A stretch of 64,000 bases of DNA from NCBI RefSeq assembly GCF_946892675.1, contig NZ_CAMPOV010000003.1, forward strand, positions 124,001-188,000, read 5' to 3'. Origin of the DNA: Arthrobacter sp. Marseille-P9274. GTDB lineage: Bacteria; Actinomycetota; Actinomycetes; Actinomycetales; Micrococcaceae. The translations under genes were made by a program, and so were the position numbers. Under the pieces are notes generated by a model. The model had not been told where the DNA came from. It did no database searches and was given only the letters and a program-made list of their open reading frames with translations. Position 1 is the first letter of the stretch. Every line of letters begins with the position of its first letter. This document shows positions 12,095 through 63,489 of this stretch, piece by piece.

Positions 12095-12368
12095 GCTCTG
12101 CATGAGCCGATTCGCGGCGGTTGAAGGAGCACTGCCCCCTTCCTGCCCACCCCTGAGCTGATGGAGGACCCTACCTGTACGGGAGCATCCTTGCGAGTGA
12201 TGCCCCTCAACCAAACGAGTGATACCTGCCACCTTTTGGATGTGCTATGCGCGCGCCAGCGTGCTGATTTCCACTGTTGCTAGCGTCAGGGCTCAGACCC
12301 TGATGAGGCCATGGCTATCAGCGAGACCGCGACCAGCACCAGCTATCGATGCGAGGTACGAGACCGAA

Positions 12369-16063: not shown

Positions 16064-17713
16064 ATGCACATCGACAACATCAAAAACATCGAAAGCCCGG
16101 CTGACCGCGAGTTCGACTACATCGTCGTCGGCGGCGGATCCGCCGGGGCCGCCGTCGCCGCCCGGCTCAGCGAGGATCCCGCCGTGACCGTGGCGCTGGT
16201 GGAGGCCGGCCCGGACGACCGCGGCCTGCCCGAGGTGCTGCAGCTGGACCGCTGGATGGAACTGCTCGAGTCCGGCTACGACTGGGACTACCCGATCGAG
16301 CCGCAGGAGAACGGCAACTCCTTCATGCGCCACGCCCGTGCAAAGGTCATGGGCGGCTGCTCCAGCCACAACTCCTGCATCGCCTTCTGGGCGCCGCGCG
16401 AGGACCTGGACGAGTGGGAGTCCAAGTACGGCGCCACCGGCTGGAACGCCGAGGCAGCCTGGCCGCTGTACCAGCGGCTGGAAACCAACGAGGACGCCGG
16501 CCCCGACGCGCCGCACCACGGGGACTCCGGCCCCGTGCACCTGATGAACGTGCCCCCGAAGGATCCCGCCGGCGTCGCACTCCTGGACGCCTGCGAGCAG
16601 GCCGGCATTCCCCGCGCGAAGTTCAACACCGGCACCACCGTGGTCAACGGCGCCAACTTCTTCCAGATCAACCGCCGCGCTGACGGCACCCGCTCCTCCA
16701 GCTCGGTCTCCTACATCCACCCGATCATCGAGCGGGAGAACTTCACCCTGCTGACCGGCCTGCGCGCCCGCCAGCTCGTGTTCGACGCGGACAAACGCTG
16801 CACCGGCGTCGACATCGTGGACTCTGCCTTCGGCCGCACCCACCGGCTGGCCGCGCGGCGCGAAGTCGTGCTCTCCACCGGCGCCATCGACTCGCCGAAG
16901 CTGCTCATGCTCTCCGGCATCGGCCCCGCCGCGCACCTCGCCGAGCACGGCATCGAGGTCCTGGTCGACTCCCCCGGCGTCGGCGAACACCTGCAGGACC
17001 ACCCGGAAGGCGTGGTGCAGTTCGAGGCCAGGCAGCCCATGGTCGCGGAGTCCACCCAGTGGTGGGAGATCGGCATCTTCACCCCCACCGAGGACGGCCT
17101 GGACCGCCCCGACCTGATGATGCACTACGGCTCCGTGCCGTTCGACATGAACACCCTGCGGCACGGCTACCCCACCACCGAGAACGGCTTCAGCCTCACG
17201 CCCAACGTCACGCACGCCCGTTCGCGCGGCACCGTCCGGCTGCGCAGCCGGGACTTCCGCGACAAGCCCATGGTCGACCCGCGCTACTTCACCGACCCCG
17301 AGGGCCACGACATGCGCGTCATGGTCGCCGGCATCCGCAAGGCCCGCGAAATCGCCGCCCAGCCCGCCATGGCCGAATGGGCCGGCCGCGAGCTCTCCCC
17401 CGGCGTCGAGGCGCAGACCGACGAGGAGCTGCAGGACTACATCCGCAAGACGCACAACACCGTCTACCACCCCGTCGGCACCGTCCGCATGGGGCCGGCC
17501 GATGACCACATGTCGCCCCTCGATCCCGAGCTGCGCGTCAAGGGGGTCACCGGCCTGCGCGTCGCCGACGCCTCGGTCATGCCCGAGCACGTCACCGTTA
17601 ACCCGAACATCACCGTCATGATGATCGGCGAGCGCTGCGCGGACCTCATCCGCGCTGGCGGCGCCGGTGAAACAACGACGGCGGACGCCGAGCTGAGCGC
17701 GGCCCTCGCCTAG
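16064..17713 (+). CDS. betA: choline dehydrogenase (GMC oxidoreductase)
   Basis: 549 residues. The ATG at 16064 directly abuts the betB stop. FAD-binding is shown by YIVVGGGSAGAAVAARLSE near residues 19-37, the GMC signature by ARAKVMGGCSSHNSCIAFWA and LSTGAIDSPKLLMLSGIGP, and the catalytic histidines by HNTVYHPVGTVRMGP and HVTVNPNI. It is cytoplasmic or membrane-associated and oxidises choline to betaine aldehyde. It is the last gene of the betT-betB-betA operon, followed within ten bases by a strong hairpin. Other GMC alcohols are possible by sequence alone, but the operon makes choline the substrate. Confidence 0.92.
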   Translation: MHIDNIKNIESPADREFDYIVVGGGSAGAAVAARLSEDPAVTVALVEAGPDDRGLPEVLQLDRWMELLESGYDWDYPIEPQENGNSFMRHARAKVMGGCSSHNSCIAFWAPREDLDEWESKYGATGWNAEAAWPLYQRLETNEDAGPDAPHHGDSGPVHLMNVPPKDPAGVALLDACEQAGIPRAKFNTGTTVVNGANFFQINRRADGTRSSSSVSYIHPIIERENFTLLTGLRARQLVFDADKRCTGVDIVDSAFGRTHRLAARREVVLSTGAIDSPKLLMLSGIGPAAHLAEHGIEVLVDSPGVGEHLQDHPEGVVQFEARQPMVAESTQWWEIGIFTPTEDGLDRPDLMMHYGSVPFDMNTLRHGYPTTENGFSLTPNVTHARSRGTVRLRSRDFRDKPMVDPRYFTDPEGHDMRVMVAGIRKAREIAAQPAMAEWAGRELSPGVEAQTDEELQDYIRKTHNTVYHPVGTVRMGPADDHMSPLDPELRVKGVTGLRVADASVMPEHVTVNPNITVMMIGERCADLIRAGGAGETTTADAELSAALA

Positions 17714-17929: not shown

Positions 17930-18700
17930 CTACCCCGGGTCCGGATAATGTCCAGTGCGGACTTCCTGGAACAGCTTGTGTGTTCCACGTTGAAGAACGC
18001 CCACGTCACTGCCGATGGCGACCAGGGACGCGCCCTTCATGGCCCACTCCCTGCCATCGGCGGGAGAGCTGGCGTTGAGCCCCGAATACACGCCGACGCT
18101 CTGAGCAGTTTCGAGCACGTGGGCGACTGCCTCCCTGACTTCCGGGTGCCGCGGGTTGCCGAGATGGCCGAGCGAGGCAGCCAGGGCGGCCGGCCCGACG
18201 AAGACGCCGTCGACACCTGTCACCGTGGCGATCTCCTTGACTGAGTCCAGCCCGGCTGCAGATTCGATCTGCATAAAAAGGCAGATCGGCTCGTGCGCTG
18301 TCCGGAGGTAGTCGGCGTTCTGCCCAAAGCCGGACGCTCGGTTGAGTGTATGCGAGACTCCCCTGGTGCCCGCGGGTGGGAAGCGGGTCGCTGCCACTGC
18401 CGCGGCGGCCTGCCCTGGTGTCTCAACCATGGGCACCAGGAGATTCTGCACGCCGAGATCGAGATATTGCTTGATAATGGTCGGTTCCCGGTCCGGAGGC
18501 CGCAGCACAACTTCCGCCAGACCGCGCACGGCCTGCACCTGGCCCAACACCGTGGTCAGGGTGTTGGGGGCATGCTCTCCGTCGACAAGAACCCAGTCCG
18601 GACCGGACCCGGAACTGATCTCAGCGGAATAGGCATTCGCCAGCCCCAGCCACAGTCCATACTGGGGTTCGCCCGAGCTCAACTGATCCTTCAGGCTCAT
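17930..18700 (-). CDS. HpaI/HpcH-family class II 2-oxo acid aldolase
   Basis: 256 residues. Family marks are WVLVDGEHAPNT, LGVQNLLVPMVETPGQAA, LFMQIESAAGLDSV with the metal-binding glutamate, and GVFVGPAALAASLG. These divalent-metal enzymes split 4-hydroxy-2-oxo acids to pyruvate plus an aldehyde (4-hydroxy-2-oxoheptanedioate, 2-dehydro-3-deoxyglucarate and relatives). It is the last gene of the minus-strand ABC transporter run, 42 bases after the permease. In the context of a ring-cleavage cluster, a lower-pathway aldolase for the 4-hydroxy-2-oxo acid formed after hydrolysis and hydration is plausible. The exact substrate is unassigned. Confidence 0.87.
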   Translation of the reverse strand: MSLKDQLSSGEPQYGLWLGLANAYSAEISSGSGPDWVLVDGEHAPNTLTTVLGQVQAVRGLAEVVLRPPDREPTIIKQYLDLGVQNLLVPMVETPGQAAAAVAATRFPPAGTRGVSHTLNRASGFGQNADYLRTAHEPICLFMQIESAAGLDSVKEIATVTGVDGVFVGPAALAASLGHLGNPRHPEVREAVAHVLETAQSVGVYSGLNASSPADGREWAMKGASLVAIGSDVGVLQRGTHKLFQEVRTGHYPDPG

Positions 18701-18742
18701 GGATCACTCCTCTTTCCAGTTATCCGGGGCATCAGCATACGA

Positions 18743-20506
18743 TCAACGCCCTGTCGCTTTTCGGTTGCGTGCCTGCATCTTTCGGACCCACCCAGGACGG
18801 GAGAACCACATCAGGAAGATCACAACGACGGCGGATACCGCAGTCATCATCACAGCAATCGCAGCCACCTGGGTGAAGAAGCCCTCGCTCCATACCTGGA
18901 ATAGCAGTGCGCTTGCCATTGGTGTCTGTCCGGTGCCTAAGAGTACGGCCACTTCAAGGTCGCCAACGATGCGGACGAACACCAGTGCGAAGGTAGCGAG
19001 CAGTCCCGGCCGAAGCAGCGGCAGCACAACCTGCCCAAAGGTACGGCCCTGTCCGGCTCCGCAGAGCCGGGAAGCATCTTCCAAGCTGCCGTCGATCTGG
19101 GCCGAAGTTCCTTCCAAAGAGATCACCGCATATGGCAGGAATGATACGAAATACGCCATTCCCATGATCAGCAAGGTGCCGCCGAGGTCGAACGGGGCAC
19201 CGCCGAAGGCAAAGATGAACGACACTGCGAGGACACTGCCGGGCACGACTGCCGGGAACTTGGCCGCCCCGTTGGCGACCCTCGAAACCCAGTTATTCGA
19301 CTGCCGGGCGTAGGTGAGGATCATCGTCGCAGCGAGCACGACAATCATCCCTGCGCCCACACCCAGGATCACAGAGTTGCGAATACCTTCCATTGCCCCG
19401 CCAGCTCCGGCCGAAGCTACGGAGAAATTCTCCAGCGTCCAGTTCGGGGCAAAGATGTCCGGTTGCCAGTAACGCTGCAGGCTCAGGTAGATCACGGCAG
19501 CCAGCGGGAGGACGGCAGCGCAGAGAATGTAGAGGATGCCCAGCATCCTCACCGGCCAGCACCACCTGCCGAGAGCAATGCGCGCCACCTTGGGGGCCTG
19601 CCCGCCCATGCGTGCGAACCGCTGCTTTGAGATGACAGTGTGCTGGAGGTAGTAGAGAACGAGCAGGACGGCAAGGAGCAGTACGCTCAGCCTCACCGCC
19701 GTACCGTAGTCGACGGGGTAGGAGTTTTGGATTGATCGGACAATACGCACGGACATGATGTCCAAGTCCGTGTTCTGACCCACGATTGCCGGAACCGAGT
19801 AGACACCGGCGCCAATGATCGTCGCCAGGATGAACCCGGAGAGGAGCGAGGGGGCTACTGCCGGCAGCGAGACAGTCCATACGACTCGCAGCGTACTCGC
19901 GCCGGAAGCGCGAGCTGCCTCTTCCAATGATGGGTCCAAGGAACGGAGCGCCGACACGATCGGCAGGTACGTGTATGGCACCGTGAGCAGCACGTAGACC
20001 AGCACCATGCCGGCAGTGGAGTAGATCTGGAATCCGAGCGGTTCCAGGATGTTCGACAGCAAACCGACTTCGGGGCTTGCCAGCGCTACCCAGCCGACGG
20101 CCAGCGCGACTGCCGGCAGGAATAGCGGGATCAGCGGCAGCGCGTCTCCGACCGGCCCTAGCCCGGCATCCGTGCGCTCGTTGACCCATGCGAGGAGGGC
20201 ACCGATCGCCAGTGATAGGAAGGCGCTGATACCTACCACCGCGGCCGTGTCCAGCAGCATGCCGGAGAACCACGGCTCCGAAATCAGCTGCGCCCACGCA
20301 TCGAACGGACCACCAGCACGCTGGAACATCTGAACCAGCGGGTAAGCGACCAAGAAGATCACGAGCACCGACAAGGCAACCAGCACGCTACCGAAGGCCC
20401 CCTTGAACACCCGCTGGCCCGGCCCTTTAGGGGCATCCGGAGCGGAAAGGGGCTGCTGCGGGGAAGACGATCGCGACGACCGGGGACGGGGTGCCAGACT
20501 AGTCAT
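18743..20506 (-). CDS. ABC transporter permease, fused double-domain (iron/polyamine type)
   Basis: 587 residues with two homologous permease halves of six membrane segments each. Each half shows an EAA loop, EEAARASGASTLRVVW in the first and EDASRLCGAGQGRTFG in the second. Fused permeases of this form are found in Fe(III), 2-aminoethylphosphonate and some organic-acid importers. The start ATG 20506 overlaps the ATPase gene end by eight bases. The N-terminal 40 residues are a Ser/Pro-rich cytoplasmic tail. It works with the ATPase and the lipoprotein upstream. Confidence 0.9.
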   Translation of the reverse strand: MTSLAPRPRSSRSSSPQQPLSAPDAPKGPGQRVFKGAFGSVLVALSVLVIFLVAYPLVQMFQRAGGPFDAWAQLISEPWFSGMLLDTAAVVGISAFLSLAIGALLAWVNERTDAGLGPVGDALPLIPLFLPAVALAVGWVALASPEVGLLSNILEPLGFQIYSTAGMVLVYVLLTVPYTYLPIVSALRSLDPSLEEAARASGASTLRVVWTVSLPAVAPSLLSGFILATIIGAGVYSVPAIVGQNTDLDIMSVRIVRSIQNSYPVDYGTAVRLSVLLLAVLLVLYYLQHTVISKQRFARMGGQAPKVARIALGRWCWPVRMLGILYILCAAVLPLAAVIYLSLQRYWQPDIFAPNWTLENFSVASAGAGGAMEGIRNSVILGVGAGMIVVLAATMILTYARQSNNWVSRVANGAAKFPAVVPGSVLAVSFIFAFGGAPFDLGGTLLIMGMAYFVSFLPYAVISLEGTSAQIDGSLEDASRLCGAGQGRTFGQVVLPLLRPGLLATFALVFVRIVGDLEVAVLLGTGQTPMASALLFQVWSEGFFTQVAAIAVMMTAVSAVVVIFLMWFSRPGWVRKMQARNRKATGR

Positions 20507-21680
20507 CGCTCACCACCCGCAGCGACTCCGAGGGGATAGTCACCTCGACCTCCGCCGACTCCCGCAACTGTGGATCGGGGGCGCCGAACGCCCATACCGT
20601 GACAGACTGGTCATCCAGCTGGCACTGGTACTCGGTATGTGCTCCCGAGAAGGTCCGTGCCATGACCACCCCGCGCCACGAACCCGGGCTTCCGTTGCCA
20701 AGTTCAGCCGGGACTATCCGGCACTTTTCCGGACGAACCATCAGAGTTACATCGTCACCGGGCGATACATCAAGAACAGTGTCATGAGCTTGCCGAGGGA
20801 CCTGCATCTCGCTGCCGCACAAATCCACAGTCAGCATGTCTCCGTCCCTTTCCAGGACGGATGCACTAATGAAGTTCGCCTCGCCAATGAACTCGGCGGT
20901 GGCCCGATTGCTGGGCCGCTCGTACACCGCTGCGGGTGATGCCAATTGGTCTACTCGCCCGTGGCGCATCACAGCTATTCGGGTTCCCAGGCCCATGGCC
21001 TCGACCTGGTCATGGGTGACATAGACAGCTGCGAACTCAAGTTGTTTGTGCAGCCGAACCAACAATGATCTGAGCTTCACTCGAATCCGCGCATCCACAT
21101 TGGACAGGGGCTCGTCGAACAGCACGATTGAGGGTTCAGAGATCAGCGTCCGCGCCAGGGCAACTCGCTGCTGCTGACCACCGCTGATCATGCCCGGGTG
21201 CTGATGAGTGAGTCCGCCCAGGCCCACCAGATCCAAGTACTCTGCGGCCCGGTTGCGCGCCGCCGACTTCTTCACACCGGCCGAACGCAGCGGATAAGCC
21301 ACATTGTCCTGCAGGTTCATGTGCGGCCACAGAGCGTAGGACTGGAACATCATGTTGACGTCCCGTTCATTCGGGGCGAGGGAAATCTGCGCCGACGAGT
21401 CGAAGGCTGGCTTGCCATTGATGCTGATGGAACCCTTTGTTGGAGACTCAAGGCCCGCAATGCAGCGCAACAGGGTGGATTTTCCGCATCCGCTGGGTCC
21501 GAGCAGGACCAGCAGTTCTCCGGTCCGCACTTCGAACGAAACGTCATCGACTGCGTTGTGAAGGTCGCCGCCGTGACGCTGGAACTCCTTCACAACGTTC
21601 TGGACGGCCAAGCGGACGGGCTTGGATTCGGCTGCCGATAAGCCCTCAGGCGCAGCGGTTCGTATGTCGGTCATACTCAT
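20499..21680 (-). CDS. ABC transporter ATP-binding protein
   Basis: 393 residues. Walker A GPSGCGKST, Q-loop MFQSYALWPHM, signature ISGGQQQRVALART, Walker B IVLFDEPLSNVD and H-loop YVTHDQVEAM are intact. A C-terminal TOBE-like domain (MVRPEKCRIVP) follows from about residue 280. The start has AAAGGAG nine bases upstream. It energises the adjacent fused permease. The architecture matches spermidine/putrescine, iron and thiamine importers, so the substrate class is not resolved by the ATPase. Confidence 0.92.
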   Translation of the reverse strand: MSMTDIRTAAPEGLSAAESKPVRLAVQNVVKEFQRHGGDLHNAVDDVSFEVRTGELLVLLGPSGCGKSTLLRCIAGLESPTKGSISINGKPAFDSSAQISLAPNERDVNMMFQSYALWPHMNLQDNVAYPLRSAGVKKSAARNRAAEYLDLVGLGGLTHQHPGMISGGQQQRVALARTLISEPSIVLFDEPLSNVDARIRVKLRSLLVRLHKQLEFAAVYVTHDQVEAMGLGTRIAVMRHGRVDQLASPAAVYERPSNRATAEFIGEANFISASVLERDGDMLTVDLCGSEMQVPRQAHDTVLDVSPGDDVTLMVRPEKCRIVPAELGNGSPGSWRGVVMARTFSGAHTEYQCQLDDQSVTVWAFGAPDPQLRESAEVEVTIPSESLRVVSDD

Positions 21681-21707
21681 TGGCGTATCTCCTTTGGAAA
21701 AGTGAGG

Positions 21708-22742
21708 TCAGTCAAGTTCGAACGCGTTGAGAATGGCCTCGCGGTCCTTGTTTGCGCGCATAGGGTCGGCAATGCGCACATCGTCCGGAGTGGGGCTGCA
21801 GCCGTCAACCTCACTCTTGACCAGCGTCATGTACAGATCGTCACCGCAGAAGGCTGCCTGGCCTTCCGTGCTTAATAGGAAATTCGTGAAGAGCAGTGCT
21901 GCGTTAGGGTTGACGGCCTCCGAGGCCACCCCCGTCAAGTTGCTGAAGGCTACAACCGGCTCAGGGATCACGGCTTCCAGCGGAGCGCCTGACTCCACCA
22001 GCGCCAGGGAATGCGCTTTCGCTCCCGGGGCTGCGATGGCAACCTGCCCCGCTGCCGTCTTTTGAACCGCCGGCACCGAGGAGTCGAACCAGTCATCGTT
22101 CTGCCCGCCGAGCGCCTTAAGGTAGTCGGCACCGTACTCATCCATCAGGAGCTGGTAGAAAGACAGTACGCTATCCGTGGCGACCTCCGGGTCGGCAAGT
22201 GTGGCGTCCTTGAGTAATTCGGGCTTGGCTAGGTCCTCCCAGGCGATTGGACCGGAGGAGATCTTCTCGGTGTTGTAAGTAGCCACCCAAGGTGAGGTAA
22301 CGACTGCGACGTGCTCTTTGTGAGCGTAGCCGTCACGAAGATTACTGACGTTGGGGACCCGGTCAGTACTCAGTTCCGTGAACCACTCGGGGTCCTCATT
22401 GAACATCAGCGGATCCGTGACAATGACGGCGTCGGCGCTCCGCGCGCCCGTGGTAGTTTCGGACGCAAAACGGCTGCGCAGATCACCGGTGGAAAGCCGG
22501 GTCACGGCAACCTCGATCTCCGGGTATTCGGCGTTGAAGGCATCGACCAATGCCGAATTCACTGCATCCGTGGCGGAGGAATAAACCACCAGCTTCCCCT
22601 CCTCCACCGCGCGTTCTGCGATGTCGTCAAAATCGGCGCCGATTTCCGCGGCGCTGCTGGAACCTCCACATGCAGTCAGGGCGGCACCTGCGAGGGCCAA
22701 GGCGACAACATGAGGAATAAGGGTCTTGATCGATAGGTTCAT
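21708..22742 (-). CDS. extracellular solute-binding lipoprotein of the ABC importer
   Basis: 344 residues from ATG 22742, with GGAG six bases upstream. An in-frame upstream ATG at 22763 is less favoured. The signal peptide ends in the lipobox LTAC (lipid-bearing Cys 25) followed by a GGSSSAAE linker. The mature part (LVVYSSATDAVNSALVDAFN, VTRLSTGDLRSRF) resembles type 2 periplasmic binding proteins of the Fe(III)/thiamine/2-aminoethylphosphonate group. Given the adjacent ring-cleavage genes and aldolase, an aromatic or organic acid ligand is possible. It starts the transporter run and is followed by the ATPase after 27 bases. Confidence 0.88.
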   Translation of the reverse strand: MNLSIKTLIPHVVALALAGAALTACGGSSSAAEIGADFDDIAERAVEEGKLVVYSSATDAVNSALVDAFNAEYPEIEVAVTRLSTGDLRSRFASETTTGARSADAVIVTDPLMFNEDPEWFTELSTDRVPNVSNLRDGYAHKEHVAVVTSPWVATYNTEKISSGPIAWEDLAKPELLKDATLADPEVATDSVLSFYQLLMDEYGADYLKALGGQNDDWFDSSVPAVQKTAAGQVAIAAPGAKAHSLALVESGAPLEAVIPEPVVAFSNLTGVASEAVNPNAALLFTNFLLSTEGQAAFCGDDLYMTLVKSEVDGCSPTPDDVRIADPMRANKDREAILNAFELD

Positions 22743-23051
22743 GGAGTGCTCCAAAATATGCATATGACCACCATCTCGTGCGGTAGACAGCACTTCGATG
22801 TGTGACAGACTTCACTGTCTGGACTGCACGATACAGACGGCAGTTAGCTGGAGTCTCCGGACACTTTCACCAAGCTTCTCCCGGCATTTGGATGAACAGA
22901 CGAAACCAGCAAGGTTGATTTGCCGCTTTCGTTCGCACTGGCGCAACGCTACCGACCGGCAGGCATCAAGAAAGCTCCGAGGAGTACCCTCGGAGCTTTC
23001 TTACGCAAAGCGGCGGCGCCGGATATGTGTGACTACGTTCTGCGTGGAGTT
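22743..23051. other. 309-base intergenic region, AT-richer than its surroundings
   Basis: It lies between the pucR end and the solute-binding gene, both on the minus strand. It contains a 15-bp perfect terminator hairpin (listed separately) and about 220 bases that must hold the transporter promoter. No gene is supported. Confidence 0.55.
22968..23002. terminator. bidirectional-looking terminator after pucR
   Basis: AAGAAAGCTCCGAGG, a five-base loop, then CCTCGGAGCTTTCTT: perfect 15-bp arms with an A-rich left end and T-rich right end, so it works on either strand. It lies 50 bases beyond the pucR stop and separates pucR from the transporter run. Confidence 0.88.
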
Positions 23052-24137
23052 TCAGTCCGTCAGACCTTCGCTGCGAAGCGCGAGCCAGAGCCGACTGGAC
23101 ATGGTGGGATCAGTGAGGTCGAGTCCGAGCAGCCTCTCCGCCGAAGAGACGCGATACCTGAGGGTATTCCGGTGGAGCGCCAGGGATTCGGCTGCTGCCT
23201 CCCAACGGCCGCGGCAGCGCAGATACTCCACCACCGCTTCCATCACTTGCGGGCTGGCTTCCCGCTGCAATCTGTGCACCCAGTCGCTCGCAGTTTCACC
23301 TCGATAGTCTGAGCGGTCAACGACTGTCCCGGTGGGCGACGACCGAATATCGTTCATCCAGTGCTGCCAGCGGTGCGACAGCTTACTCGCCGGCACCTGC
23401 TCGGTCAGGAGTACTTTCAGCGAGGGGTGGCGGTCGACAAGCGCGACGAGTTCCGGCCTCATCGCTTGGAATTGGACTTGGGATAAGAGGAGCCAGCATT
23501 CGTCGTCGTCGTTATACGCCAATAGCTGACGGGAGTCTGCCGGCACCGCTGCTTCGAGCAAGTCGAGGAGATCGTCGCGGTCCCATGCCCCCACTCCCCG
23601 CACACAAACGATGTGAGGCCGGCTGGGTGGAGTTGCGAGCCCCATCTCGGCGGCCAGCTCCAGGGCGCTTTCAATCCGCCCGGAGAATATCAGCCGCGTG
23701 ATTGAATCGCGCACCATACGTGATGCCGTTTGCAGCCGCCTCATGTCACGCAACAGCAGGCGCAGGAGCAGAGCGGCACTGGATCCGAACCTGGGCAGAT
23801 CCGGATGGCTTGCGTCCGTGGATGCCACAACCAGGATCGCGGTGGCCCTGCCCTCGGCGCCGACAGGAAATGCCTGCAACTCATAACCACCGGAAGTCCG
23901 TCCAGTGGCAGGTTTGACCGGCGGCAGTGGGATCACGGCCGCCGCTTCCGCGAGCACCTGCGCATCCACTTCACCGTTAGTGCTTGCCCTAACTGACTCA
24001 ATGGGCCGCCCGCTAGTGGTGAGCAGGGCACCCCATTCCGCACCGTTGTCAGTCAAGCATGTGAGGATCGAGGAAATCGGATACTTCGATCCCGACGCGC
24101 GGACGAGGTCCGCATACCCCAGTTGTAGAGTCTCCAT
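23052..24137 (-). CDS. PucR/CdaR-family transcriptional regulator
   Basis: 361 residues. The C-terminal PucR helix-turn-helix is clear: YLRCRGRWEAAAESLALHRN followed by TLRYRVSSAERLLGLDL. The N-terminal two thirds are a GAF-like or effector-binding region. Such regulators often activate catabolic genes in response to the pathway substrate or an intermediate. It sits between the ring-cleavage operon (start 29181, end 24169) and the ABC importer run, so it probably controls one or both. It is 31 bases from the preceding hydrolase gene end and may be on the same transcript. Confidence 0.88.
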   Translation of the reverse strand: METLQLGYADLVRASGSKYPISSILTCLTDNGAEWGALLTTSGRPIESVRASTNGEVDAQVLAEAAAVIPLPPVKPATGRTSGGYELQAFPVGAEGRATAILVVASTDASHPDLPRFGSSAALLLRLLLRDMRRLQTASRMVRDSITRLIFSGRIESALELAAEMGLATPPSRPHIVCVRGVGAWDRDDLLDLLEAAVPADSRQLLAYNDDDECWLLLSQVQFQAMRPELVALVDRHPSLKVLLTEQVPASKLSHRWQHWMNDIRSSPTGTVVDRSDYRGETASDWVHRLQREASPQVMEAVVEYLRCRGRWEAAAESLALHRNTLRYRVSSAERLLGLDLTDPTMSSRLWLALRSEGLTD

Positions 24138-24168
24138 GGCTACACGAATATACCGTCATGGCCGTTGC

Positions 24169-25014
24169 TCACGATCTTCGTTTCGTCCCGGACAGGAAGT
24201 TGACGACCAGCGAGTTGAACTCCTCGGCTTTCTCATAGGGCACCCAGAGCCCGCATTCGCCGAAGACATGAAGCTGCGCATGAGGGATCCGGCTGAGCAT
24301 GAATACACCGTTTTCGAACGACTGGGCACGGTTCTCGCGTCCCCACACGATCAGCGTCTGGGCCTGTATCTCGTCGAGCCGCTTCCACAGATCAGGCGGC
24401 GTGTGCCGAACCGGCGTCCGCCCTTCCGGGGCGCGCTCCATGAACTCAGGATCCACGCTTGCTTCGTACCGCTCCCACAGCACGTCGTCGGTAATCAACG
24501 AAGGGTCGTAAAGCAACTGGGAGAGATAATCGTGCATCTTCTGCAGTGAGGGGCCATCGCCGCCGTAATAGACATGACTGGCTGAGTCCCGGCGACGCAG
24601 ACCGAACATGGTCTGGCCGCCGGCAGCGCTCACTAGTATCAGCCGGTCAACGACGTCCGGATAGTCGGCAGCGAGGCGGATGGCCACAGCACCGCCGGTA
24701 GCCATCCCGAGCACATTGACCCGCTCAAGCCCTAAAGCCTCGAACAACGCGACCATAGTGTCGGCATACATTTTGTTGCGCCCCGTGGATACATCGGGCT
24801 TATCCGATTTGCCGTAGCCGGGCAGGTCCACCACGATGACGCGGAAGTGCCGCGCGAGTGCCTCGATGTTACGGCCGAAGTTACCCCAGCCGTATGCCCC
24901 TGGGGCGCCGCCGTGCATGCAGAGCAGGACCGGCCCCTCGCCTACCTCGTGGTAGTGCACCCGATACTCGCCGGCCTGCACAAATCGGCTTGTCGCCTCG
25001 TACGTCAGCATCAT
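24169..25014 (-). CDS. alpha/beta-hydrolase-fold protein lacking the catalytic triad
   Basis: 281 residues, full length for meta-cleavage-product hydrolases (BphD/HsaD-like). The oxyanion-hole region MHGGAPGA, DLPGYGKSD and the C-terminal EEFNSLVVNFL are well kept. However the nucleophile elbow reads GMATGG (Ala 105 for Ser), the acid position reads GREN (Asn 228 for Asp) and the histidine position reads ECGLW (Leu 256 for His). All three were confirmed from the codons. The fold is intact, with no frameshift or stop, so this looks like a maintained pseudo-enzyme or an enzyme with another chemistry. It is coupled by ATGA to the intact hydrolase gene upstream (25011-25961). Confidence 0.9.
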   Translation of the reverse strand: MMLTYEATSRFVQAGEYRVHYHEVGEGPVLLCMHGGAPGAYGWGNFGRNIEALARHFRVIVVDLPGYGKSDKPDVSTGRNKMYADTMVALFEALGLERVNVLGMATGGAVAIRLAADYPDVVDRLILVSAAGGQTMFGLRRRDSASHVYYGGDGPSLQKMHDYLSQLLYDPSLITDDVLWERYEASVDPEFMERAPEGRTPVRHTPPDLWKRLDEIQAQTLIVWGRENRAQSFENGVFMLSRIPHAQLHVFGECGLWVPYEKAEEFNSLVVNFLSGTKRRS

Positions 25015-25961
25015 TCACTCCTGCTTCCAACGAGTTGCTTGCCGTGGAGGTCGCCGGTCTGAATCGGAGGAGCGGCGATCCGGCGGTCCCAGCCGGCAAT
25101 AAACCTCAGGACCAAGTGGTTGAATTCCTCGGCCCGCTCCACCATCGTCCAATGGCCGCAGTGACCGAACACCACAAGGTCCGCGTTGGCAAATGCCTCG
25201 GCTCCGGCCAGAGCATCCTCCGGAGGGTTCACTCGGTCTTCGCGACCGAACAGGAAGAGCATCGGCACCCCGCACCTCCCGGCCCGTTCCAGATCGAGGG
25301 GATGGTGAACCTTGCTTAGCTCCCGCAGCCGCGTGGATGCCAGATGCTGCTGGTACGCCCCCGGCCGCCCGGCCACGCGTGTCCGGAACTCGACCAATTC
25401 CGTCGGGATCTGACGGCGGTCGTGCACCAAGTGCTCCATGGACTTACGCACGAGCTCAGCGGAGAACTCCCCCATATCCTTATGCGACGACTGGTTCGGC
25501 TCAAATCTCGAGCCGGCCTGCCACCGGGCGCCGGCAGTCCCGACGACCACTCCTCCCGCCACCCGTTCAGCATGGTCCAAAGCGAAGCTGGCCAGCACCA
25601 TGCCACCCATCGAATTGCCAATCACATAGACCTTGGGCATGTTCAATGCATCCAAAAGCCTCAGGACCAGATCCACCTGATGGGGACGGTCCGCTACCAC
25701 GCCGGGAGGCGCCTCAGTAAATCCGTACCCGTACAGGTCCGGTGCGATCACGCGGTGCCCCGCAGCCACCAAGGCCGGGATGGTCAGGTAGAAATTCGCC
25801 GCCGCGGTGATTCCGATCGCGGAGCCGTGCAGTAAGAGCACCGGAATACCCTCGGGACCGCCCTCGTCCAGATAGTGGATGCGTTCGCCCGGACGCGTGA
25901 CCAGCCAGTGTGACTGGTAGCCGAAGTACTCGGCTACCAGTGATGAGTCATCTGCGGTCAT
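25011..25961 (-). CDS. alpha/beta hydrolase, meta-cleavage-product hydrolase-like
   Basis: 316 residues from ATG 25961, behind CGGAGG at good spacing. The triad is complete: nucleophile Ser 117 in GNSMGG, Asp 242 in FGREDR and His 270 in GHCGHW. LLLHGSAIG gives the oxyanion hole. BphD/TodF/HsaD-type enzymes hydrolyse the C-C bond of ring-cleavage products to a carboxylic acid and a dienoate. It overlaps the dioxygenase gene by 14 bases and the next, triad-less paralogue by four, consistent with one tightly coupled operon. A plain esterase or haloalkane-type function is less likely in this context. Confidence 0.9.
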   Translation of the reverse strand: MTADDSSLVAEYFGYQSHWLVTRPGERIHYLDEGGPEGIPVLLLHGSAIGITAAANFYLTIPALVAAGHRVIAPDLYGYGFTEAPPGVVADRPHQVDLVLRLLDALNMPKVYVIGNSMGGMVLASFALDHAERVAGGVVVGTAGARWQAGSRFEPNQSSHKDMGEFSAELVRKSMEHLVHDRRQIPTELVEFRTRVAGRPGAYQQHLASTRLRELSKVHHPLDLERAGRCGVPMLFLFGREDRVNPPEDALAGAEAFANADLVVFGHCGHWTMVERAEEFNHLVLRFIAGWDRRIAAPPIQTGDLHGKQLVGSRSE

Positions 25962-26919
25962 TAGTGCCTCCGGCGGCCACCAAGGCTGGCCATTTGGCAA
26001 AGGCAATGCCTGTGAAGCAAGCGTGAACCGGCATGTAATCGATGATTTTGCCTGGACGATTCATGGCTGCCGCGACGGAGATCCAGGCACGAATTTCACC
26101 GGTGCCGGAGCGCATGGCTGCGGAATCGAAACTGAACAACTTGGACAACTCTTCGACTTCGTTTTTCTCGACCCGTTCCATGACCCAGGTATCGAGCGGA
26201 GTATCGATATCCCCACGGTTGAAGTCGCGGTCGGAGGGGTAATGACTCAACCCGCCCGAGGCAACCAGGAGGATCTTTTCCTCACGCCTGTTCAGAATGT
26301 CAGCGATGGCGCTGCCCAACTCCGCGCAGCGCTCACCGTTCGGTAGCGGCTCGTAGTACTCATTGAGCAGGACGCACACGATTGGGATCTGGCCGGAGGG
26401 ATCGAGTTCGGGCGCGATCCTAGCCGCCATATGAGGCAGTCCGTAACCTTCCCGACCCTGCGGATTGAACCTATGCAGTGTGGAAACGTCGAACTTGCGC
26501 TTGATCAGTCCGTGGGCCAAGTCCGTCGAGACGTCCACATGGTTGTTGAACTTAACCACTGATCGGTCCTTCATGGGCACGTTCCACTCGTAGCCCTGAT
26601 GCCCCCACATCTCTTCTTCGCCGATGTAGACGGCGAGCGACGGATTATTCGACAGGTTGAACAGGTCCCCTTGGTCGTCACCGACGAAGACGATCACATC
26701 CGGCTCATAAGCGGCAACCTCTTTGCGCATCTCGTCGAAACCGTCATGAATCCGACGGTAGAGATCCTGGCAGACCTCCAGGCTGTCCCGCTGCCGCCGG
26801 GCCTCTGGGTAACGTTCGAAAACGCCGGGTGCGACTCGGTCAATCATCCACTGCTGCCAAGCCTCCGGGGGACGGAACATTCCAGCTGCGTGGGAACAAG
26901 CCAAACCAAGACCAATCAT
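25948..26919 (-). CDS. class III (LigB-type) extradiol ring-cleavage dioxygenase, catalytic subunit
   Basis: 323 residues from ATG 26919 with AGGAG upstream. LigB-superfamily landmarks are ACSHAAGMF (His 10, first iron ligand position), LVASGGLSHYPSD (His 226, the LigB active-site acid-base position) and SGTGEIRAW (Glu 275, third ligand position). The second LigB ligand position reads GDDQGDLFNL, giving Gln 83 instead of His. From memory a GDDQ subfamily exists, so this may be a family trait. The reaction would be Fe(II)-dependent opening of a catecholic ring. No small LigA-type subunit is encoded nearby. It lies between the hydroxylase pair and the hydrolases, exactly the expected pathway order. 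Confidence 0.83.
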   Translation of the reverse strand: MIGLGLACSHAAGMFRPPEAWQQWMIDRVAPGVFERYPEARRQRDSLEVCQDLYRRIHDGFDEMRKEVAAYEPDVIVFVGDDQGDLFNLSNNPSLAVYIGEEEMWGHQGYEWNVPMKDRSVVKFNNHVDVSTDLAHGLIKRKFDVSTLHRFNPQGREGYGLPHMAARIAPELDPSGQIPIVCVLLNEYYEPLPNGERCAELGSAIADILNRREEKILLVASGGLSHYPSDRDFNRGDIDTPLDTWVMERVEKNEVEELSKLFSFDSAAMRSGTGEIRAWISVAAAMNRPGKIIDYMPVHACFTGIAFAKWPALVAAGGTNDRR

Positions 26920-26956
26920 TGTTTCTCCTCTTATTCTTCTGAACTGCAAGTAGTTG

Positions 26957-27922
26957 TTAGTCGTGAGCAAGGGCCATGAGGACTCGGTGAGCTGCGGCAA
27001 CGTCACTTTCCGGCAGCCCAGCCAGGGTGGCTTCGTTGAATCGGCGCGCGTCCTCCGCTACCTCTTCGCGGAGGGCTCGCCCCGCCTGCGTCTGGCAGTA
27101 CACTGGCCCATCGGTCTCGACCAAGCCCCTTTCGCTGAGTTGGCTCAGCGCATCCTCGATGGCCTGAGGCCCCAGGAAGGCCGACTCCACCAACTCTTGG
27201 ACCATCTGCGGGCCCGCGGAGAGCCTTTTGAGCACCCGGCTGCTGGCTACGGTCAGCCCAAAGCGTGAACGATGCTCGTCAAAATTGCGCTGGAGCCGAT
27301 GATTTACCGTCGTTACGAGTTGGGCGAACTGGGCTTGGTCGCTGTCGCTCGCACCAGCCGAAGCAGCAGCTGGTCCGTGTGCTGCGGTGGAGGCAGGGAA
27401 CGACTGGGAAGTGGCATAGGCGCCCTGAACGAAGAGCAGCGGCTCGCCCTCTGTGACGGTGCAGCGCTCCACGCGGCCAAGAATGATCTGATGGTCGCCG
27501 CCTGGCAGGACGTTATGAGTCCGGCACTCAAAACGCGCTATGGCCTCGTCGATGAGCGGGGCTCCTTCCATCCCCTCGGTCCACGCGATCCCGTCGAATG
27601 GATCGATACCGGCCATGGGCGAGGCAACAACACGGGAAATGTCAACCTGCTCAGCCGCCAACACGTTGACCGCGAAGTGTGCTGCAGCAGTGAAAGCAGC
27701 CGCCCTACCTGAGGCGTTCTGCACAGACCACAGGATCAGTGGCGGGTCCAGTGAGACGGCGGCAAATGAGTTGACGGTCATGCCGACCGGTCGACCATCG
27801 CACATGGCGGTGATGACCGCGACCCCCGTGCCGTACTGTCCAAGGGCGCTGCGGAACGCCCGGATGTCCTTCAATGGCTCGCTGGCCACGTACTCCAGCG
27901 AGGGGGCTGCTGAGGCGGTCAT
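26957..27922 (-). CDS. flavin reductase fused to a C-terminal MarR-like domain (HPAH C1-type)
   Basis: 321 residues. Residues 20-175 form a flavin reductase domain (FRSALGQYGTGVAVITA, GMTVNSFAAVSLDPPLILWS, GDHQIILGRVERC, EPLLFVQGAYA). A Ala/Ser-rich linker follows, then residues 200-318 form a MarR-like winged-helix domain (HRLQRNFDEHRSRFGLTVAS, DALSQLSERGLVETDGPVY). The same layout is known in the C1 reductase of Acinetobacter p-hydroxyphenylacetate hydroxylase, where the MarR-like part is an effector-controlled autoinhibitory domain. It overlaps the oxygenase stop by ATGA. Substrate-gated flavin supply to the adjacent oxygenase is the inferred role; DNA binding is an alternative. Confidence 0.88.
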   Translation of the reverse strand: MTASAAPSLEYVASEPLKDIRAFRSALGQYGTGVAVITAMCDGRPVGMTVNSFAAVSLDPPLILWSVQNASGRAAAFTAAAHFAVNVLAAEQVDISRVVASPMAGIDPFDGIAWTEGMEGAPLIDEAIARFECRTHNVLPGGDHQIILGRVERCTVTEGEPLLFVQGAYATSQSFPASTAAHGPAAASAGASDSDQAQFAQLVTTVNHRLQRNFDEHRSRFGLTVASSRVLKRLSAGPQMVQELVESAFLGPQAIEDALSQLSERGLVETDGPVYCQTQAGRALREEVAEDARRFNEATLAGLPESDVAAAHRVLMALAHD

Positions 27923-29181
27923 CGGTAGTACGCCAGGGTGCGCATGGACGGGTTGTCTTCGAAACTAGGACCCGGCAGGCCCAGCAGGCTCTGGGCATAC
28001 AGCGTCGCGGCAGCTTCCCGCCCGGCCGATCCGTGTACGCGCATGGCGTGCAGGTCCCGGACCACACGTTGCAGATGGTTGCTCGACAGGATGGAGCCGG
28101 CTCCGGCCACAGGCCAAATCTCCTGAAGCGCATCAAGGCTGACGGCGATCGCATCAGCAGCCTCGAACCGAACCTTCAGGCGTTCCACCGGATCCGCAAG
28201 ACTGCCCTCGCAGGCAATCTGGAAGAGCTCCCGCCAGTTGCCGAGATGCCGCCGCTTCACCGTGTTCACATTCGACAAGGCCCCGGCCAACCGCACCAAC
28301 AGATGCGGGTTTTCGGTAACGGCTACACCCGTTCCGCGGCGGGCCCGGCGAATCTTGCTATCTTCGATGAACTCCTCGAAACCACCAAGCGTTGCCCCGA
28401 TAGCAGAGTTGGCCATGGTGGAATTGAAGATCGAAAGGAAGGAAACGCGGTAAAGGGGACGGTCGTTGACCTCCCAGCCAGGATTGTTATCCCTGTAGGT
28501 GTCTTCGAGCACATGGGTCCGGTAGTCCGGAACGAAAGTGTCGACGACGGTGACCGACTTGCTGCCGGTGCCCTTCAAACCGGAGACGTCCCAGCTGTCT
28601 TGGGCGATACTGAAGTCGCTGCGGGGAAGAACGAAGTTGCGGTCACCGCCACCGAGGATCACCCATTGGGCGTGGTCCACCCCGCTGGAGAAACCCCACG
28701 TTCCGTTGAGGATGTACCCTCCCTCGACTTTTTGCCACTGCCCCGTTGGCGCATAGGAACTGGAAGCCCGGGTGTCGGGTCCATCCGCCCAGAACTCGTC
28801 CTGGAGCCGCTTGTCCATCAACGCGATCTCGAATGAGTGGACATTTAGCTGTCCCCCGATCCAAGCCGCTGATGCCTCCGCGCTGGCGATTTTCATGATG
28901 CCTTCGAAGAATGCGGCCGGGGCCATTTCCAATCCGCCGTACTGCAATGGGGTCAACGCCCTGAAGACTCCCGCGCTGGTCATGGCCGCGACCGTCGCGT
29001 CCGGAACTCTCCCCAGACGCTCGGTCTCCGCACGGGCAGCACGGATCTCCTCGAGGATGCTATCGACGTCGGTCAGATAGCGGGCACCAACCTGGTAGGC
29101 CCGCTGCGAGTACTGCTCGGGGGTGACACCCGTCCCGCCCTGAAGGAGCGCGGTTTCTATGGTTCCTGTGGTGGCTTGCAT
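27919..29181 (-). CDS. acyl-CoA-dehydrogenase-fold flavin monooxygenase, oxygenase component (C2/HsaA-like)
   Basis: 420 residues from ATG 29181, with AGAGGA upstream. The acyl-CoA dehydrogenase-like fold is shown by VPDATVAAMTSAGVFRALTP, PLQYGGLEMAPAAFFE, WGFSSGVDHAQWVILGG and the C-terminal VRDLHAMRVHGSAGREAA. This pattern belongs to reduced-flavin hydroxylases such as HsaA, C2-HPAH and related phenol hydroxylases. It is the first gene of the five-gene operon and is coupled to the MarR-fused reductase. It probably ortho-hydroxylates a phenolic substrate to a catechol for the LigB-type enzyme. Confidence 0.88.
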   Translation of the reverse strand: MQATTGTIETALLQGGTGVTPEQYSQRAYQVGARYLTDVDSILEEIRAARAETERLGRVPDATVAAMTSAGVFRALTPLQYGGLEMAPAAFFEGIMKIASAEASAAWIGGQLNVHSFEIALMDKRLQDEFWADGPDTRASSSYAPTGQWQKVEGGYILNGTWGFSSGVDHAQWVILGGGDRNFVLPRSDFSIAQDSWDVSGLKGTGSKSVTVVDTFVPDYRTHVLEDTYRDNNPGWEVNDRPLYRVSFLSIFNSTMANSAIGATLGGFEEFIEDSKIRRARRGTGVAVTENPHLLVRLAGALSNVNTVKRRHLGNWRELFQIACEGSLADPVERLKVRFEAADAIAVSLDALQEIWPVAGAGSILSSNHLQRVVRDLHAMRVHGSAGREAAATLYAQSLLGLPGPSFEDNPSMRTLAYYR

Positions 29182-30271: not shown

Positions 30272-31471
30272 CTAGGCCGAAGGCGTACCGCAGGGCTGCT
30301 GGGTCGCCGCAGACAATCCAGCGGCCAGCCGCTGGAGGGTGCCGGCGGTTATGGCTGTGTAGGCCGGGATCTCGTCCGGGTAGATGTACTCGTTCCGGGC
30401 GTGCGCGCCGTCGCCTACGGCGCCCAGGCCGCACAGGACTGGGACGCCCAGGGCGGAGACGAAATTGGCGTCGCTCCCGCCGCCCACGGCTGCGGTTTCC
30501 AGCTTCCTGCCCATCTCCAGGGCCGCGCTGCGGACAACCTCGAGGAGCCCGGCGCTGGCTTCCGTCAGCGTCATGGGCGGCCGGTTCCAGTAGTGGTCGA
30601 TCTTGACGGCAACCCGCGGGTCGCTGAGCTGGATCGCGTCGAACTCCCGGTCGACTCGTTCCATTTCCTCAATGGACTCAATTCGGATGTCGATCTCGGC
30701 GACGGCCAGGCCGGCCGAGACGTTGGTTCCCGAGCCTCCCCTGATCAGTCCCACGTTGATCGAGGTGCCGCGGCCCAGATCCTGGATGCGTGTGGCAGCG
30801 GTGATGAACTCGGCCAGGGCGTGGATGGCGCTGGCACCCGCGGTCGGATTCAGCCCTGCGTGGGCCTCCACCCCGGTGACGGTGGCGGTGAAGATCCCGA
30901 TGCCCTTCCGGCCCGTCTTGACTGCGCCGTCCAGCGTTGGCTCGAGGACCAGCACAGCGTCCGCCTCGGCGGCGGCGGCTTCGATGAAGGGACGGGAGGC
31001 CCTCGAACCGGGCTCCTCGTCGCCGTTGAAGAGATAGGTGACGGTCGGGTGTTCGAGGCCCTGCTCGCGCAGGAGCTTCAGGGCCCAGATGCCCTGGACC
31101 AGGCCGGTTTTCATGTCGAAGATGCCCGGCCCGCTGACGGTTTCGCGGCCGCCGGCGCCCGTCCGGCGGGTGACCGGCCAGCCGGCGAGGGTGCCGGTCG
31201 GCCAGACCGTATCGTAGTGCCCGATGATCAGGACGTGGCCCGAACCCGTCCCGCGGTAAGTCATGCGCAGCACGCTGCCGTAGTCGCCGCCGTCGTCCGT
31301 TACCTCCCCCTCCGGTTCGCCGAGGTGGCGGACAACCAGCCCGCGAAGCCGGGCCAGTCCGCGCTCCAGCGCGGCAAGGTTGGCGCTGTAGGTTTCGGTT
31401 TCGACGAGGCTGACGATGTCGCCCAGCATGGACTCGCGGCTGCTGTGCGCCGCATCGAGCAGGGATGGCAC
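30272..31471 (-). CDS. M20-family metallopeptidase, glutamate carboxypeptidase (CPG2)-like
   Basis: 399 residues from GTG 31471 with AAAGGAG seven bases upstream. Metal and catalytic motifs are in order: IIGHYDTVWP (His 85, Asp 87), GPGIFDMKTG (Asp 119), FNGDEEPGS (Glu 152/153), GVEAHAG in the dimerisation domain and GDGAHARNEY near the end. CPG2-like enzymes remove C-terminal glutamate from folates and acyl-glutamates; others act on dipeptides or N-acyl amino acids. The gene is third in an amidase, D-threonine-aldolase-like, peptidase operon and faces away from an AbgT-type transporter. That supports import and hydrolysis of an amide-linked amino acid. Confidence 0.88.
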   Translation of the reverse strand: MPSLLDAAHSSRESMLGDIVSLVETETYSANLAALERGLARLRGLVVRHLGEPEGEVTDDGGDYGSVLRMTYRGTGSGHVLIIGHYDTVWPTGTLAGWPVTRRTGAGGRETVSGPGIFDMKTGLVQGIWALKLLREQGLEHPTVTYLFNGDEEPGSRASRPFIEAAAAEADAVLVLEPTLDGAVKTGRKGIGIFTATVTGVEAHAGLNPTAGASAIHALAEFITAATRIQDLGRGTSINVGLIRGGSGTNVSAGLAVAEIDIRIESIEEMERVDREFDAIQLSDPRVAVKIDHYWNRPPMTLTEASAGLLEVVRSAALEMGRKLETAAVGGGSDANFVSALGVPVLCGLGAVGDGAHARNEYIYPDEIPAYTAITAGTLQRLAAGLSAATQQPCGTPSA

Positions 31472-31508
31472 GGTGGGTCTCCTTTACTGAGGCTGCGGAC
31501 TGTGGGGC

Positions 31509-32609
31509 CTAGTTGTTCTTTCCGCGGGCGGCGACGGCCCAGCGGTCGACGACGTGGCCGTTGCTGACCACGGCGACGGAGTCAACGAGGTTGATCGCCA
31601 CGCAGACATGGTTGGGGATCACCCGCAGCCTGGTTCCGAGGGCAGGCAACTCGGCGTTCCCGGGCCAGACCACGGTGGCGTGGTGTTCGGACAGCGCCGT
31701 GATGCGGGCGTCCGGGTGGTCCATGAGCCGCCCGAATCCGGTGGCCCAGGCCGGCCGGTCGCCGCCGATGATCTTGCTGCCCGAGTCGAGGACCACCCTG
31801 CGGGGTGTGGTGCCATCTCCCTCATGCCGGCTGACGACTGTTGCCGCGATGGTCAGGGCGATGTCCTCCATTGCGCACCGCTCCAGTTCGAGCTGCTGGG
31901 CGTCGCCGAAGGCATAGACGCCCGGGCGCATTTCCGTTGCCGCGGTGGCACCGGTGAGGGCAGCGGTGGGAGTCGAACCGCCGCTCGCGCGGCTGACTTC
32001 GAAGCCCGCCTCCTCCAGCAGCTTGGCCGCTTCGCGGAGGGCGCGTTCCTCCTGCTCCGCTGCCTCGACGGGCATGCCGGGCGCGTAGCCGTGGCCGGGA
32101 AACGTGAAGACGCCCGTGACGCGAAGCCCGGCCCCCGACGCGGCGCGGGCGATGTCCACGGCCCGGTCGGGGCCGACGCCGCTGCGGTGGTGGCCGCTGT
32201 CGATTTCCACCAGGACCTCGATCCCGCCCGCTGCGGCGCCGAGGTGTCCGGCCAGGTTTTCGGCTGCTTCGACTGAGTCGGTTCCCACCGCGATGCGGGC
32301 CCGGGTGCTGAGCCGGGAGAGGCGCTCCGCCTGTCCCGGACCGACCCAGAGCGGGTAGGCGATGAAGACGTCATCGACTCCGCGCTCCACGAAGACTTCG
32401 GCCTCGCCGATAGTGGCGACGGTCAGCCCCACAGCCCCCGCGGCTATTTGCAGCGCCGCGATCTCCGGAATCTTGTGGGTCTTCGCGTGCGGCCGCAGTT
32501 GAAGCCCCTTGGAGCGGGCTGTCTCCGCCATCCGTCCGATGTTCCGCTCAAGCACTTCCCTGTCGATCACGATTTCCGGCGTTTGGATCTCGTCTGGAAT
32601 TGCGTGCAT
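31509..32609 (-). CDS. D-threonine aldolase / D-serine dehydratase-like PLP enzyme
   Basis: 366 residues from ATG 32609 with GGAGGAAGG upstream. It is a fold-type III PLP enzyme: LRPHAKTHK carries the Schiff-base lysine (Lys 43) and the C-terminal [11 protein letters not shown] carries the His and Cys metal ligands of the DSD/DTA family. PAFGDAQQ-type segment [15 protein letters not shown] is also typical. Known activities are metal-dependent D-threonine aldol cleavage and D-serine dehydration. It lies 37 bases before the M20 gene and 81 bases after the amidase. A D-amino-acid released by the neighbouring amidase or peptidase is a reasonable substrate, unproven. Confidence 0.86.
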
Positions 32610-32690
32610 CAATGACCTTCCTCCGGGCAGTTCGTGTCTCCCCAGAATGGCAGCTGCGCCCAGTCCCCGCTGGTTCCGGGCGGTGGTGCC

Positions 32691-60231: not shown

Positions 60232-60752
60232 CCGCCACGGCCGTAACCGCCCGCCCCATCGACTCGGACCGCTACCGTGCCGTGATGCGGCACCTGCCTA
60301 CCGGCGTCGCCGCGATTTGCTCGACGGACCCGCTCAGCGGGGGCCAGAACGGCATGATCGTGGGCACCTTCGCCTCCCTGTCCATGGACCCCGCCCTGGT
60401 GACGTTCAGCGTCACGCACACCTCCACGAGCTGGCCCAAGATCGCGCGGGCCGACCGCTTCGGCGTCAGCCTGCTCGCCGAGGGCCAGCAGCAGGTCTGC
60501 CGGGCGCTCTCCGCCAAGGGCGAGGACAAGCTGGGCGCCCTCGATTGGTCCGAATCCGACTGGGGCACCCCGCACATCCACGGGTCGCTCGCCTGGTTCG
60601 ATTGCCGCGTCGAGCAGCAGATCGTTGCCGGCGACCACCTGATCGTCGTCGCCAGCGTGCTGGAGATGACACCCAGTGACGGCACGCCGCTCATCTTCCA
60701 CGGCGGCCGTTTCGGCAGCTTCCGCGAAAGCGCCCCGGCGCAAGCGGCATAA
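60228..60752 (+). CDS. flavin reductase (HpaC-like), first of two
   Basis: 174 residues with the start overlapping the amine oxidase stop (ATGA). Flavin reductase domain marks are MRHLPTGVAAICSTDP, GTFASLSMDPALVTFSV, GDHLIVVASVLEM and TPLIFHGGRFGSF. It supplies reduced FMN or FAD to a monooxygenase. It is adjacent to a second reductase with a similar N-terminus, the two being distinct paralogues. The LLM monooxygenase is the nearest acceptor. Confidence 0.9.
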   Translation: MTATAVTARPIDSDRYRAVMRHLPTGVAAICSTDPLSGGQNGMIVGTFASLSMDPALVTFSVTHTSTSWPKIARADRFGVSLLAEGQQQVCRALSAKGEDKLGALDWSESDWGTPHIHGSLAWFDCRVEQQIVAGDHLIVVASVLEMTPSDGTPLIFHGGRFGSFRESAPAQAA

Positions 60753-60769
60753 GCGGAAGAGGAACAGTC

Positions 60770-63460: not shown

Positions 63461-63489
63461 ATCTTCACATCTTGAAAGGAACCACACCC

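Follow-up and report, generated by a model that had tools for sequence, protein, structure and literature searches.

An apparently maintained meta-cleavage hydrolase homologue without a catalytic triad in a predicted aromatic-degradation operon of Arthrobacter sp. Marseille-P9274

INTRODUCTION

Functional meta-cleavage (MCP) hydrolases, among which HsaD and BphD are the closest described systems for the protein considered here, rely on a Ser-Asp-His triad, and Arg190 and Asn51 of BphD presumably bind the dienoate. Laboratory Ser-to-Ala mutants of these enzymes trap meta-cleavage substrates; the entries 2wud (HsaD) and 2rhw (BphD) are taken here to be single mutants of this kind, with Asp and His retained. 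The alpha/beta-hydrolase fold has also been re-used for binding or non-hydrolytic chemistry, as in the plant receptor GID1 (hydrolase-fold receptors act as ligand sensors in plants), the catharanthine and tabersonine cyclases and Hod/Qdo, which are cofactor-free dioxygenases keeping a functional His/Asp. The protein analyzed below, called ANL after its Ala, Asn and Leu residues at the three triad positions, belongs to a different subfamily from these examples and is without the His/Asp of Hod/Qdo. As regards the pocket of BphD, PMC7034887 gives Ala at position 112 (the nucleophile position) of 2rhw, ligand contacts at G41-G43, A46, N111, M113, G138, G139, F239, V240, His265 and W266, and a contact of Gly136 with the nucleophile backbone. 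BphD numbering throughout follows the Polaromonas BphD row of our alignment, which agrees with that source at Asn111, Gly136, His265 and Trp266.

Relatives of catabolic hydrolases that have lost the triad are readily written off as decayed genes, but the three losses of ANL persist in distant bacteria. ANL shares Ala at the nucleophile position with the aligned engineered HsaD (2wud) and differs from the engineered mutants in that its replacement is natural, triple and conserved. It can thus be regarded as a natural counterpart of the substrate-trapping mutants, which makes it testable whether bacterial aromatic pathways contain product-holding pseudoenzymes or an unrecognized non-hydrolytic step. 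Among the titles and abstract openings listed in searches of the open-licence PMC literature, no triad-less MCP hydrolase was found.

THE GENE, ITS PRODUCT AND ITS OPERON

The window, i.e. the whole stretch of 64,000 nucleotides that was analyzed, contains the ANL gene within a block of genes on the minus strand. The features are as follows, in window coordinates.

24169..25014, minus strand: ANL, triad-less MCP-hydrolase homologue of 281 aa, retaining Arg182, Trp257 and Asn45 (BphD Arg190, Trp266 and Asn51)
24700..24702, minus strand: codon 105 of ANL, GCT, Ala at the nucleophile position
24331..24333, minus strand: codon 228 of ANL, AAC, Asn at the acid position
24247..24249, minus strand: codon 256 of ANL, CTC, Leu at the histidine position
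25011..25961, minus strand: hyd1, MCP-type hydrolase with Ser117, Asp242 and His270; its stop codon and the start codon of ANL overlap in ATGA
25948..26919, minus strand: LigB-family (class III) extradiol dioxygenase (ligB)
26957..27922, minus strand: flavin reductase resembling HsaB and the p-hydroxyphenylacetate-hydroxylase reductase (hsaB)
27919..29181, minus strand: HsaA-like two-component monooxygenase, oxygenase subunit (hsaA); the start at 29181 was picked from the alignment with genome G121 (see below)
23052..24137, minus strand: PucR-type regulator (pucR), directly downstream of ANL
21708..22793, minus strand: ABC solute-binding protein (SBP)
20499..21680, minus strand: ABC ATPase
18743..20506, minus strand: ABC permease
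17930..18700, minus strand: HpcH/HpaI-type aldolase (hpaI), final gene of the conserved block

The frame of ANL is uninterrupted over 281 codons, and the motifs around the replaced residues are GMATGG at 103-108 (Ala105), GREN at 225-228 (Asn228) and ECGLW at 253-257 (Leu256), against GNSMGG (Ser117), GRED (Asp242) and HCGHW (His270) in hyd1. These residue calls in both proteins, the absence of stop, frameshift or shortening, and the ATGA junction had all been given in a preliminary description of the locus and are confirmed. That description had also presented ANL as a paralogue next to an intact copy. An intact hydrolase does adjoin it, with the same fold, in the same operon and with overlapping start and stop, but the word ‘copy’ is loose: hyd1 keeps the triad, the two proteins are only ~30% identical, and hyd1 and the Caballeronia-type hydrolases (see below) occupy long branches of their own, in positions that the tree program flagged as unsure. 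A recent duplication of hyd1 was for these reasons rejected as the origin of ANL.

Homology of ANL to HsaD/BphD extends over the full length of the alpha/beta-hydrolase. PDB chains of HsaD match it at E ~6e-58 over residues 3-277, and the NCBIfam HsaD equivalog model NF045632 gives 238.3 bits over residues 3-275, where its cut-off is 400 bits (hyd1 reaches 146 bits on the HsaD model). A further likeness to the HsaD/BphD systems is the setting in an operon with a monooxygenase and an extradiol dioxygenase. An AlphaFold model of ANL, built from a two-sequence alignment, had a mean pLDDT of 54.8 and a pocket that could not be read.

Taken as a whole, the operon reads as a predicted pathway of phenol ortho-hydroxylation and meta-cleavage. 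Adjoining it on the opposite strand (window 12219-17713) are genes for a BCCT transporter, a betaine-aldehyde-dehydrogenase-like and a choline-dehydrogenase-like protein, and upstream of it on the same strand (window 30272-34124) are M20 peptidase, D-serine-dehydratase-like and amidase genes. Two more HsaB-like flavin-reductase matches (31-35% identity) lie in tandem at window 60252-61267.

RESIDUES LOST AND KEPT

All 22 canonical MCP hydrolases chosen for comparison keep Ser, Asp and His; Ala/Asn/Leu is found in none of them and in the three ANL proteins known (the two others are described in the next section). The 22 leave out six hydrolases of the hyd1 and Caballeronia types and two distant hydrolases of the own genome (L003, L005), the weak relatives L004, L006-L011, L021 and L022 were not aligned, and the canonical count of 24 that applies to the rows of the tree is these 22 plus two hyd1 rows. 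At the 47 positions conserved in at least 90% of the canonical set, ANL keeps 33 in all three members and six in part, and loses eight in all three (33, 37, 104, 105, 129, 144, 228 and 256). The lost set holds the whole triad (hypergeometric 0.0035 for all three triad positions falling within it) together with the equivalents of BphD Asn111, Gly43 and Gly136.

Departure from conserved positions as such is not peculiar to ANL. In a leave-one-out control, canonical members depart at 0-7 of 36-40 conserved positions and never at the triad, and the six hyd1/Caballeronia-type rows depart at 8-15 of 36, compared with 7-10 for ANL. At Gly43 both hyd1 rows have Ala, and at Asn111 the four Caballeronia-type rows have Val. 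What distinguishes ANL is its loss of the triad, chiefly of nucleophile and histidine, both of which are retained in each of those six rows.

The equivalents of Arg190, Trp266 and Asn51, at the dienoate end, are kept in all three ANL members. Several BphD ligand-contact positions are altered (43, 111, 113, 138, 239 and 240), and the ligand may therefore differ. No acid or base stands at the old triad positions in any member; Glu227, which precedes Asn228, is Asn in the Caballeronia protein and is thus not a conserved stand-in acid. New polar core residues common to the three members are Thr106 and Ser129. These observations bear on the idea that ANL is still a hydrolase in which other residues activate the water: retention at sequence level of fold, cap and Arg/Trp/Asn cradle speaks for it, but no member has the Ser, Asp or His or the equivalent of Asn111, and no conserved substitute acid is present, so that residual hydrolysis is unlikely.

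DISTRIBUTION AND MAINTENANCE

One homologue, 79% identical, comes from a genome of another genus of the same family (G121; locus L019), and the other, 54% identical, from plasmid p1 of Caballeronia sp. Lep1P3 (locus L012), where the motifs are GLATGG, GRNN and NCGLW. Both carry the same trio and are free of stops. In the plasmid search, which matched 1387 records, the Caballeronia protein scored 327 bits and the other 29 of the 30 matches listed at most 214 bits; residues were inspected for the retrieved records. Caballeronia and the window organism are inferred to come from different phyla, since a Nocardia farcinica sequence nests in the tree among matches from the window organism's class.

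Searches of genome sets that partly overlap, at E cut-offs from 1e-35 to 1e-70 and with the best 6-15 candidates per genome scored in the larger sets, otherwise returned hydrolases with intact triads or nothing:

Family: 5 of 245 genomes matched, namely the own genome, G121 and three with intact triads (ANL clade in 2 of 245)
Genus of the window organism: ANL in 1 of 10, the window genome alone
Genus of G121: ANL in 1 of 29, G121 alone
Order: 1 of 347, the window genome alone
Class: 11 of 394, the own genome and ten with intact triads
Phylum: 3 of 155, the own genome and two intact-triad matches already found in other sets
Phylum of genome G562, at E 1e-60: 0 of 299, in a set holding no positive control

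Viral contigs gave no match to ANL, the ANL alignment, hyd1 or the canonical-hydrolase alignment, and a search of genome contigs gave three weak relatives of other kinds. The ANL clade is rare. Its presence in one of ten genus genomes, together with the low G+C of the operon (0.615 for window 17930-29151 versus 0.670 in the rest of the window), is consistent with horizontal acquisition.

In a maximum-likelihood tree of 33 rows the three ANL proteins form one clade (support 97/90; recovered in 98% of the 200 bootstrap trees). Codons for the trio are GCT/GCC/GCA (Ala), AAC/AAC/AAC (Asn) and CTC/TTG/CTG (Leu), i.e. silent change continued at the Ala and Leu codons while the residues stayed. Between the window and G121, dN is 0.146 and dS 2.08 for ANL, giving a dN/dS of ~0.07 in which dS is saturated; hsaA, hsaB, ligB, pucR and hpaI lie at 0.068-0.144, and for hyd1 dS could not be estimated. 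Against Caballeronia the ratio is 0.40 for ANL and 0.33 for hsaA, so that constraint is less evident over this longer distance and the support for it weak.

Common loss of the same residues in three members, joined to purifying selection on these values, points to a maintained pseudo-hydrolase rather than a broken gene, since a relative from another genus and a distant soil bacterium both retain these replacements. Decay or misreading of the gene would fit the rarity of ANL within family and genus, but the identical trio in the homologues, the open frames, the low ratio against G121 and the conserved position leave this explanation very improbable, and chance or sequencing error is likewise unlikely given the recurrence of the trio in G121 and Caballeronia. 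The claim of the preliminary description that the gene appears maintained is in this way supported, and the scattered substitutions and stops by which decay would have been recognized were not seen in either close homologue.

GENE NEIGHBOURHOODS

Loci with ANL

Gene order in G121 is that of the window (hsaA-hsaB-ligB-hyd1-ANL-pucR-SBP-ATPase-permease-hpaI), after which the block continues with a hydratase gene and a second hpaI-like gene. In Caballeronia a hydrolase gene again adjoins ANL, with the order of the two genes reversed relative to the window; its product keeps Ser and His and has an Asp next to the usual position. The RefSeq start of this gene is 113 bases downstream of ANL; extension of the frame to agree with its relatives places the start within the stop codon of ANL, so that the ANL frame overlaps that of the adjacent hydrolase in the window, in G121 and, if the upstream start chosen here is adopted, in Caballeronia. 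Genes for mhpD, acetaldehyde dehydrogenase and aldolase follow, hsaA, hsaB and two VOC genes lie upstream, and a BphC-like VOC dioxygenase gene is apparently interrupted by an IS3 element (L012:5993-8647).

The earlier expectation of a LigB dioxygenase as constant companion does not hold. A LigB gene stands in the ANL operon in two of the three members; in Caballeronia the ring-cleavage candidates of the cluster are VOC-type, and a LigB-like gene is found ~7 kb off in an mhp cluster. An adjacent hydrolase is present in all three loci, and it is of two unrelated types: hyd1 and the Caballeronia hydrolase are ~29% identical and non-orthologous, which argues against a conserved specific heteromer. 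Since ANL is tied neither to LigB nor to one kind of hydrolase, the arrangement favours a role linked to the small molecule over a fixed heteromer.

Position beside pucR, the next gene downstream in the window and in G121, might suggest a ligand-sensing or regulatory protein, for example one that reports the ring-cleavage product to PucR. This is improbable, as ANL in Caballeronia is flanked in the annotation by the genes for an MFS transporter and the hydrolase, and near hsaA there the regulator is LysR-type.

Hydratase genes

Also part of the preliminary description was that the cluster encodes no separate hydratase, with a hydratase role for ANL as one hypothesis. The first point is right for the operon itself but not for the genome, where a hydratase with a 79% match to that of the G121 cluster lies at C1:553084 with another HpaI-type gene next to it, and a second hydratase-like gene (34-36% to that of G121) starts near window 63484 and runs past the right edge (63484-64000). 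In Caballeronia a hydratase gene is next to the ANL-hydrolase pair, and in G121 it stands at the block end. Because separate hydratase genes are thus available to the pathway, a hydratase role for ANL is disfavoured.

Clusters without ANL

Close relatives of HsaA occur in 5 of 395 family genomes (window, G121, G1362, G1224 and G1256), as searched with window 27922-29148, a query 11 residues short. Those of the last three genomes are 58-63% identical, and ANL is absent from the 20-kb stretches around them and from the whole G1224 genome; HsaA dependence was on this ground rejected. The three stretches encode a hydrolase ~57% and a small VOC protein ~40% identical to those of Caballeronia, and also an MmgE/PrpD-family protein, a hydratase and an HpaI-type protein. 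By these matches Caballeronia has its hydrolase and VOC protein in common with the clusters without ANL, and its ANL in common with the window type.

The MmgE/PrpD-family genes of the ANL-less stretches (L042:6853-8280, L043:6315-7760 and L044:12885-14309) have no counterpart in the three loci with ANL (window, L019 and L012), the comparison covering stretches of 20-25 kb and the whole 64-kb window. This mutual exclusion is a lead and not a result, since the loci are few and related.

PROPOSED ROLE

ANL would descend from an HsaD/BphD-type hydrolase in which the whole triad was replaced (the nucleophile Ser by Ala, the acid Asp by Asn and the base His by Leu) and the oxyanion and nucleophile environment was lost in part. 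Fold and cap would have persisted, along with the residues that hold the carboxylate end of the 2-hydroxy-dienoate (Arg182, Trp257, Asn45). By analogy with the Ser-to-Ala mutants of BphD and HsaD, ANL may then bind, but not hydrolyze, the product of ring cleavage or a close analogue of it and, being co-produced with the hydrolase, may hold, hand over or buffer this reactive product or tune the hydrolase. Such a holding, hand-over or tuning protein beside an intact hydrolase is the likeliest of the roles considered, and is put forward tentatively, at rather less than even confidence.

The main rival, possible but less probable, is that ANL is a non-hydrolytic enzyme (tautomerase, E/Z isomerase, decarboxylase or lyase) acting on the ring-cleavage product or the dienoate, whose Arg/Trp/Asn cradle would bind the substrate and in which other groups or a desolvated pocket would do the chemistry. 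ANL is conserved at 54-79% across loci in which the partner hydrolase is exchanged, as would be the case for an independent step, and Thr106 and Ser129 are new polar residues in its core. Dehydratases, a decarboxylase and an epimerase are among the members of the MmgE/PrpD family, and the occurrence of this family in the clusters without ANL hints that one step is replaced. However, no general acid or base occupies the old triad positions, hydration is already covered by the separate hydratase genes, and the MmgE/PrpD pattern of three against three related loci is confounded by ancestry. The stronger proposition, i.e. that the MCP-hydrolase scaffold has here given rise to a new class of non-hydrolytic enzymes, with a triad-free and unrecognized step of isomerization, decarboxylation or carrier hand-over, is more doubtful still; if it were true, the step would occur in a subset of HsaA-type meta-cleavage pathways common to distant bacteria, and ANL would take the place of the MmgE/PrpD-family enzyme of the sister clusters.

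A POSSIBLE SHIFTED CATALYTIC ACID IN THE CABALLERONIA-TYPE HYDROLASES

The Caballeronia hydrolase (L012:12858-13718) and those of the three ANL-less stretches (L042, L043 and L044) keep Ser and His and have Ala at the usual Asp position. In these proteins an Asp is found one position earlier, in the motif VDAPN, which suggests a shifted catalytic acid.
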